Shown: one piece after another, positions 5,490 to 5,594 of the stretch
Layout: the number at the start of each line of letters is the position of its first letter
Position numbering within the stretch: the first letter of the stretch is position 1
Assembly: GCF_004795895.1 (NCBI RefSeq)
Contig: NZ_CP039250.1
Coordinates: 2,914,001 to 2,978,000 of the forward strand
Reading direction: 5' to 3'
DNA length: 64,000 bases
Origin: Sphingopyxis sp. PAMC25046
Lineage (GTDB): Bacteria > Pseudomonadota > Alphaproteobacteria > Sphingomonadales > Sphingomonadaceae
Program-made: the position numbers and the translations under genes
The notes under the pieces: generated by a model
Database searches by the model: none
What the model was told of the DNA's origin: nothing
Seen by the model: only the letters and a program-made list of their open reading frames with translations

Positions 5490-5557
5490 GCCACCCGAAC
5501 CCGGGCGGCAGCCGGCGCGGGCTCAGGCCGCGGCCGACCGCCCCCGACATGCGGGGG
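5490..5557 (-). promoter_or_regulatory. thrS leader hairpins (candidate attenuator)
   Basis: Two stable hairpins follow the Thr codons. The first (5541-5557 in window coordinates) has CCCCCG/CGGGGG arms with a 5-base loop. The second (5490-5509) has 8-bp arms (GCCGCCCG/CGGGTGGC, one G-U pair) with loop GGTT. A short T run on the transcript strand follows about 20 bases later (5469-5466), farther away than in a classic terminator. Which pairing is terminator and which antiterminator cannot be settled by eye. Confidence 0.45.
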
Positions 5558-5594
5558 TAGTGGTGGTCCGGGTCGTGATCGGCGTCCGCGTCAT
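5523..5594 (-). CDS. threonine-rich leader peptide upstream of thrS (attenuator)
   Basis: A 23-codon ORF starting at the ATG on 5594-5592 and ending in TGA at 5525-5523. It begins MTRTPITTRTTTTP and continues ACRGRSAAA. Eight of the first 13 codons are Thr, with one Ile, which closely resembles the thrL leader of the enterobacterial thr operon. It lies in the same orientation as thrS and ends about 136 bases before its start. A GGACGGA stretch directly precedes the ATG. A 6-bp G/C hairpin (5541-5557) begins immediately after the Thr run, where a stalled ribosome would change RNA folding. The ORF is read directly; its role is inferred from position and composition. Confidence 0.8.
   Translation of the reverse strand: MTRTPITTRTTTTPACRGRSAAA

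Follow-up and report, generated by a model that had tools for sequence, protein, structure and literature searches.

The DNA stretch analysed here (the window) comprises 64,000 nucleotides of Sphingopyxis sp. PAMC25046 and contains, on its reverse strand, a thrS gene whose product scores 643 bits against TIGR00418 (cut-off 384) and carries the TGS, tRNA_SAD, core and anticodon domains of Pfam. In the same direction, and separated from the thrS ATG at 5386 by 136 nt counted from its stop codon, lies a leader ORF of 23 codons in which eight of the first 13 codons specify threonine, as the initial annotation had reported (Table 1). It is the sole site in all six frames of the 64 kb with at least eight Thr per 13 residues, and 40 equally long order-1 Markov sequences contained no comparable Thr density. 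The promoter region of the leader adjoins a divergent small gene of the glyoxalase/VOC family (5678-6055, +).

Table 1. Features of the thrS leader region, in window coordinates.
Feature	Position	Strand	Sequence or remark	Basis
P1 -35-like hexamer	5624..5629	(-)	ATGACA; 17 nt before -10	
P1 -10 hexamer	5601..5606	(-)	TATGTG; -12 to -7 relative to leader ATG	
Leader peptide ORF	5523..5594	(-)	MTRTPITTRTTTTPACRGRSAAA; predicted leaderless	ATG...TGA, 23 codons
Thr-rich control codons	5556..5576	(-)	codons 7-13, TTRTTTT	within leader ORF
Hairpin 1:2	5541..5557	(-)	CCCCCG-CATGT-CGGGGG	RNAalifold on A1
Segment 2	5529..5543	(-)	GGGCGGTCGGCCGCG; part of conserved-tail codons, pairs with 3	duplexfold swap test
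Segment 3	5503..5519	(-)	CGCGCCGGCTGCCGCCC; partner is 2 or 4	swap tests, window folds
Hairpin 3:4	5490..5509	(-)	GCCGCCCG-GGTT-CGGGTGGC	RNAalifold, pair counts, swap test
Segment 4	5491..5501	(-)	GGTTCGGGTGG; 5' strand of pseudoknot stem S1	pairs with 5478-5468
Segment 4b	5481..5486	(-)	GCGTCC; 5' strand of P5 / pseudoknot stem S2	RNAalifold
Segment 5	5468..5478	(-)	CCATCCGAATT; 3' strand of S1	swap tests, pseudoknot pair counts
Segment 6	5452..5457	(-)	GGACGC; 3' strand of P5 / S2	RNAalifold, swap test
P2, promoter-like element next to thrS	5418..5446	(-)	CTTCCGG-14 nt-TGCCATGG	pattern search, spacing by eye
thrS, threonine--tRNA ligase	3383..5386	(-)		TIGR00418 and Pfam domains

The comparison with relatives covered 110 of 119 genomes (30 loci and 80 stretches), the remaining nine being broken, partial, without a match or beyond the 80. 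The source set consisted of 110 loci, from which L108, beginning inside thrS, was skipped, and the 80 further stretches; the resulting 189 loci were reduced to 183 by removing identical upstream regions and loci with less than 150 nt upstream. In one locus (G007:C1:1450324-1452302) the thrS match falls into five pieces, pointing either to a disrupted gene or to a low-quality assembly. A region was counted as positive when three or more Thr codons stood in a row in an ORF no more than 450 nt from thrS. This was the case for 55 of the 183 regions, or 52 after L022, L141 and L164 had been removed by eye, and the same scan gave 5/183 on the reverse complement and 0/106 inside thrS. From the 52 positives, 39 leaders were assembled into alignment A1, on which the covariance model R1 was built; A1 omits the near-duplicates L025, L031, L045, L079, L081, L118, L126 and L159, the locus L067, whose 3:4 region is deleted, and the divergent L063, L069, L092 and L129. 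A search with R1 added L011, L030, L019 and L134 as members, and 74 matches gave, after removal of near-identical ones, the non-redundant set of 70 leaders used below.

Across the six-codon run of these 70 leaders, threonine accounts for 377 of 420 codons. Codon positions 1 and 2 are nearly invariant in the last four run codons and position 3 drifts (third base over the run: C 217, T 94, G 50, A 16). Since the Thr codons are kept while their third base drifts, the run codons are, on this comparative evidence, under coding selection for threonine, and the locus thus has the first hallmark of an attenuator, a short selected ORF encoding the amino acid to which the downstream gene is linked. Many of the leader peptides also share a similar C-terminal tail, for example RGRSVA, and the tail codons at the same time form segment 2 of the RNA. 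Three loci depart from the common layout: L067 (33.7 bits against R1) has kept the Thr leader ORF, which nearly abuts the thrS-proximal element, and has apparently lost 3:4 and P5, and L144 and L173 (the latter at 21 bits) are possibly decayed leaders, with the thrS-proximal element present and the Thr run unclear.

Two E. coli systems have either the sensor codons or the target in common with this leader. The thr operon leader uses Thr codons as the sensor and controls biosynthesis, and the thrS operator acts on thrS and works through binding of ThrRS to anticodon-like hairpins. The latter provides a precedent for a different explanation, in which ThrRS would bind its own leader mRNA and the Thr codons would be incidental, E. 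coli thrS being autoregulated in this way through its operator RNA. Here, however, the Thr codons are kept mainly at positions 1 and 2, and the reading frame and the tail are conserved. The region also lacks a counterpart in Rfam release 15, including the T-box and the Thr leader: nothing was found up to E = 1 at window positions 4800-6300, or at the gathering threshold in L021, L018, L008 and L201. ThrRS binding is therefore a very improbable explanation for the conserved run.

A weak promoter at 5601-5629 and a nearly leaderless mRNA had been suggested for the leader, and the promoter geometry goes even further. P1 in the window reads ATGACA, 17 nt, TATGTG, 6 nt, ATG, with the A of the ATG as the predicted +1. 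When the start codon was picked as the in-frame ATG closest to the Thr run, with promoters disregarded, TA was found at -13/-12 of that ATG in 51 of the 70 leaders, and at any other position from -30 to -4 in 0-9 leaders each; by eye, strings resembling TTGA or GTGAC stand at a comparable distance in many relatives. Since TA has this spacing in 51 of 70 leaders, transcription should begin right at the leader AUG, which would make the leader peptide fully leaderless.

The initial annotation had also seen a strong hairpin directly after the Thr run and a second one further on. Both are present as 1:2 and 3:4, but the energetic strength of the leader is ordinary: the whole leader (5383-5600) has a z of -0.77 against dinucleotide shuffles, 45 of 200 of which were at least as stable, and the folding energy was accordingly dropped as evidence. 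Since the energy is ordinary, the hairpins convince through their conservation. The picture of two hairpins also misses helices 2:3 and 4:5, the pseudoknot, the second promoter-like element and the patchy distribution described below.

RNAalifold, run unguided on A1, predicts 1:2, 3:4 and P5 (4b:6), with double changes in five of 17 pairs, none of them within 1:2. Covariation is seen in P5 (CG 18/UA 10 and CG 31/UA 6) and in one pair of 3:4 (GC 38/AU 22), and inspection by eye revealed complementarity between the loop plus 3' arm of 3:4 and the loop of P5. We have further checked the pairings by swapping partners among the 70 leaders, a procedure that retains the relatedness between the sequences. 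None of 2,000 swaps was as good for 3:4, 4:5 or 4b:6, with 1,917/2,000 for a control stretch. Helix 2:3 failed the ungapped version of the test (1,920 of 2,000 permutations at least as good); with bulges allowed in duplexfold, it gave -28.2 versus -25.8 kcal/mol and 0/2,000 as good. Hairpin 1:2 did not pass (227/2,000 as good), and has 92.2% of its cells paired with zero double-sided changes.

Helices 4:5 (stem S1) and 4b:6 (stem S2) together make up an H-type pseudoknot. In terms of best-match helices, whose lengths lean high, S1 has 9-13 bp in 63 and S2 6-8 bp in 62 of the 70 leaders, and the connecting loops are correspondingly regular (L1 of 1-2 nt in 43, L2 of 0-2 nt in 54 and L3 of 9-17 nt in 66). 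Pair counts were made on alignment A2. Helices 1:2, 3:4 and P5 had guided the fitting of A2, whereas 4:5 had not; as S2 belongs to the fitted structure, the independent evidence in this count comes from S1. The 18 pseudoknot pairs are formed in 89.9% of the cells, compared with at most 59.8% when slid, and double changes occur in 12 of the 18 pairs (93 cells). None of 500 shuffles matched the pseudoknot in percentage, cells, types or covariation score, and three of 500 matched it in the number of pairs. For the stored A2 structure the values are 95.5% paired and 68 double-changed cells, its number of double-changed pairs being reached by 151/500 shuffles and its types by 18/500. Compensatory changes are thus found in 3:4, in P5 and in the pseudoknot stems, and the comparative test proposed at the outset, namely a Thr-rich ORF conserved upstream of thrS with third-base drift and compensatory stem changes, has been passed.

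A second hallmark of an attenuator lies in the arrangement of these helices, since 2:3, 3:4 and 4:5 are mutually exclusive and are placed such that the location of the ribosome would choose among them. Predicted folds illustrate this for the window: the RNA from 5555 onwards adopts a long 2:3 helix together with P5, without 3:4 and without 4:5, and the RNA from 5512 onwards adopts 3:4 together with P5. When predicted folds were averaged over the leaders, a ribosome at the stop codon gave values of 0.90 for 3:4 and 0.80 for P5. The corresponding values, all for nested folds without pseudoknots, were 0.53 (2:3), 0.45 (3:4) and 0.27 (4:5) with the ribosome at run codon 5, 0.50, 0.61 and 0.16 with it at the final Thr codon, and 0.52, 0.39 and 0.07 with no ribosome. 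Thus, the averaged folds lean in the right direction but do not give a clean switch, and the modelled switching is partial only.

Taken together, the selected ORF, the -10 spacing and the covarying alternative helices make Thr-tRNA-dependent attenuation a well supported reading of these sequences, and we consider it quite likely that the leader is a cis-acting sensor of charged tRNA-Thr in which the position of the ribosome sets the read-through into thrS. P1 transcripts would have the A of the leader start codon as their first base, and the leader would be translated without a Shine-Dalgarno site. When charged tRNA-Thr is plentiful, the ribosome would reach the stop codon and cover segment 2, allowing 3:4 and P5 to form, and read-through into thrS would fall. 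When charged tRNA-Thr is scarce, the ribosome would stall within the Thr run, on top of segment 1, and 2:3 would form, excluding 3:4. Segment 4 would then be able to pair with segment 5, 4b:6 would complete the H-type pseudoknot, and read-through would rise. Both the stalling and the direction of this response, like transcript elongation as the output, are inferred from the layout of the segments.

The comparative support for attenuation by charged tRNA-Thr, as proposed in the initial annotation, concerns the ORF and the helices, but the U-run terminator that would complete the classical scheme is mostly missing. Stretches of 8 nt with at least five T are found after 3:4 in 2/70, after P5 in 4/70 and within the P5 loop in 8/70 leaders; in the window, neither hairpin has a U-run 3' of it. 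Hence the G+C hairpin of an intrinsic terminator is present mostly without its U-run, and the canonical form was rejected as a general model of the off state. Since U-runs are this rare after 3:4 and P5, the off state is, judging from the leader sequences, mostly not a canonical intrinsic terminator, and termination at the hairpin only, Rho-dependent termination or another step are the candidates. A terminator scan of window positions 1-20000 gave 21 sites, compared with 13.4 in shuffles, and included a terminator-like site with T8 at 18551-18582.

The Rho-dependent form of the same Thr sensor is not exclusive of the explanation given above, but one form of it. Once the ribosome has left the leader, Rho would act on the untranslated RNA and stop the polymerase, and 2:3 and the pseudoknot would shield this RNA or block Rho when the ribosome stalls. 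The scarcity of U-runs is in line with this, as is the fact that stem S1 can form only when 3:4 is absent, but both states of the region are highly structured, and we regard the involvement of Rho as possible rather than probable. Alternatively, the output could be post-transcriptional, with the alternative folds affecting how the P1 mRNA is translated or degraded. Three loci are informative here, since they have a 168-aa ORF between the leader and thrS (L011, 924-1430; L019, 4057-3551; L030, 940-1446). In all three, the ATG of this intervening ORF is preceded, at a distance of about 12-17 nt, by the 3' strand of P5, which speaks for this alternative. However, thrS itself is a further gene downstream in these loci, and in the window the end of P5 is separated from the thrS ATG by 65 nt that contain a promoter-like element; post-transcriptional control is thus an unlikely account of the conserved folds. 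The presence of the 168-aa ORF between leader and thrS favours regulation of the entire unit at the level of transcription, which fits better than control of thrS translation. The L011 copy of this ORF has no Pfam or NCBIfam match, and contains a DTEFNG motif that may be DEDD-exonuclease-like.

The promoter-like element next to thrS, P2, was searched for with a pattern written after seeing the sequences, and this pattern occurs no more than 50 nt after P5 in 60 of the 70 leaders. A like pattern, of the type TTG[CA]...GGCATAAG/GGCAAAGG and equally post hoc, is found in 25 of 128 leader-less regions, and inspection by eye of leader-less relatives such as other Sphingopyxis showed CTTGCCG...TGGCAAAGG at a similar place. 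We read P2 as the older thrS promoter, whose activity, inferred from these sequences, would probably provide a constant basal level of thrS transcription. Many leader-less Sphingomonas-like genomes have CTTGCC...GGGCATAAGC before thrS, with an unusual -10-like sequence.

The leader is restricted in its distribution. Among 296 genomes sampled from the order, 92 have an R1 match at E <= 0.01; 87 of these have a match of at least 49 bits, all within the window's family, and the other five have weaker matches only. For the strong-match loci L201-L232, thrS follows on the same strand in 32 of 32 cases, 46-80 nt past the end of the model. Of the ten weak matches in the order (below 49 bits), nine were inspected (L244-L252, with G320 excluded): eight coincide in part with other open frames, and the ninth (L245) is located between frames. 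In the class sample, 29 of 385 genomes match; four, above 30 bits, are family members, and the other 25 score 21-29 bits. The six best class matches outside the family (L233-L238) were rejected as leaders, being ACC-repeat matches mostly without 3:4, although one of them (L237) aligns a 3:4-like stem. Within its own genome, the leader scores 92.2 bits and the second-best match 16.8 bits, which gives no sign of the leader before other genes, and no leader was seen in about 550 nt before ilvB, trpE or pheS. A frame with a Pro run precedes ilvB of this genome, and a second acetolactate-synthase-like gene, scoring under the family cut-off, is found at 54743-56335 (+) of the window.

The family itself is covered in a patchy manner. 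In the order sample, the genome of the window is the sole match of its genus, with at least 15 other members lacking one, and all but one of the other Sphingopyxis examined are without the leader. A FastTree phylogeny of 106 thrS proteins requires at least 12 changes of leader state; 23 of 26 rows in one clade, which includes Erythrobacteraceae, bear the leader, and the pattern elsewhere is patchy. Since so many relatives are without it, the leader is evidently dispensable.

Among the genomes compared, the closest named relative of the window is Sphingopyxis sp. LC363 (L031), with a thrS 98.5% identical to that of the window. This near twin was compared with the Sphingopyxis loci L099, L032, L033, L103, L034, L036, L002 and L048. 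For the 75 nt before thrS, its nearest sequence is the leader-bearing L064 (0.90), the eight other Sphingopyxis reaching at most 0.74; for the first 60 nt of thrS, it is the leader-bearing L026 (0.87), the eight others reaching at most 0.75. A few leader-less loci are also near, for example L022, with 0.83 in both stretches. From +260 of thrS onwards, Sphingopyxis are nearest (0.89, then 0.92), and 60-260 is ambiguous. The thrS of the window pair looks chimeric at about 5126-5461 (-), with its 5' end and the upstream block like those of other, mostly leader-bearing lineages and the remainder like other Sphingopyxis. From these similarities, the pair seems to have gained the leader, P2 and the thrS 5' end by recombination, which is the simplest of several possible histories. 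We put forward only tentatively a further-reaching version of our model, in which a leaderless Thr-codon sensor has the pseudoknot as its read-through state, the off state is not an intrinsic terminator, the pseudoknot keeps the polymerase going (for example by denying Rho), and promoter and leader have spread between lineages as a movable block.

Several known leaders resemble the one described here. Leader peptides are reportedly formed without a ribosome binding site in Corynebacterium ilvBNC (Morbach 2000), and leaderless poly-Cys short ORFs of mycobacteria are said to act as attenuators (Canestrari 2020). The mycobacterial ORFs, like the thrS leader, are leaderless with a run of a single amino acid, but theirs is cysteine and they belong to Actinobacteria. 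The ilvBNC leader is likewise a leader peptide attenuator, differing in its branched-chain codons and in its actinobacterial origin (PMC10272879). Among Alphaproteobacteria, the trpL RNA of Sinorhizobium meliloti starts at the ATG of its leader ORF, as is predicted here, but this attenuator belongs to a Trp biosynthesis gene, has a 14-aa leader, and is depicted with a terminator hairpin (PMC7298713). According to the same source, rnTrpL, which also begins at the leader ORF ATG, acts in trans, and the short transcript and peptide of the thrS leader might do so too, like rnTrpL/peTrpL, besides or instead of acting in cis. However, conservation lies mainly in the Thr run and the tail, as cis control predicts, making action in trans improbable.

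The nearest published case is the uORFC-8-2 motif (PMC8632094), which precedes cysS in Rhodobacterales and combines a pair of tandem Cys codons with two prominent stems and a U run at its 3' end. Both leaders are alphaproteobacterial, both have codons matching the amino acid of the downstream synthetase, and ribosome-mediated attenuation was proposed for uORFC-8-2 as well. Unlike it, the thrS leader has up to nine Thr, the 2:3/3:4/4:5 helices with a pseudoknot, and few U-runs; with thrS in place of cysS and Thr in place of Cys codons, it does not belong to that motif. Searches of the open-licence literature gave no paper with a title or inspected passage on a thrS leader peptide in Alphaproteobacteria, and one may have been predicted in Lopatovskaya 2010 or Vitreschak 2004.

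If this reading is true, the threonyl-tRNA synthetase of a large environmental family joins the genes sensed by leader peptides, and its leader start codon is, in dozens of species, also the point where transcription is predicted to begin. The leader also offers a comparative case in which a covarying pseudoknot stands as the alternative to 3:4 and the usual U-run is rarely present, so that what halts the polymerase in such leaders becomes a testable question. Finally, the patchy spread of the leader, and its having apparently been transferred along with the 5' end of thrS, suggest that the sensor was gained as a block.
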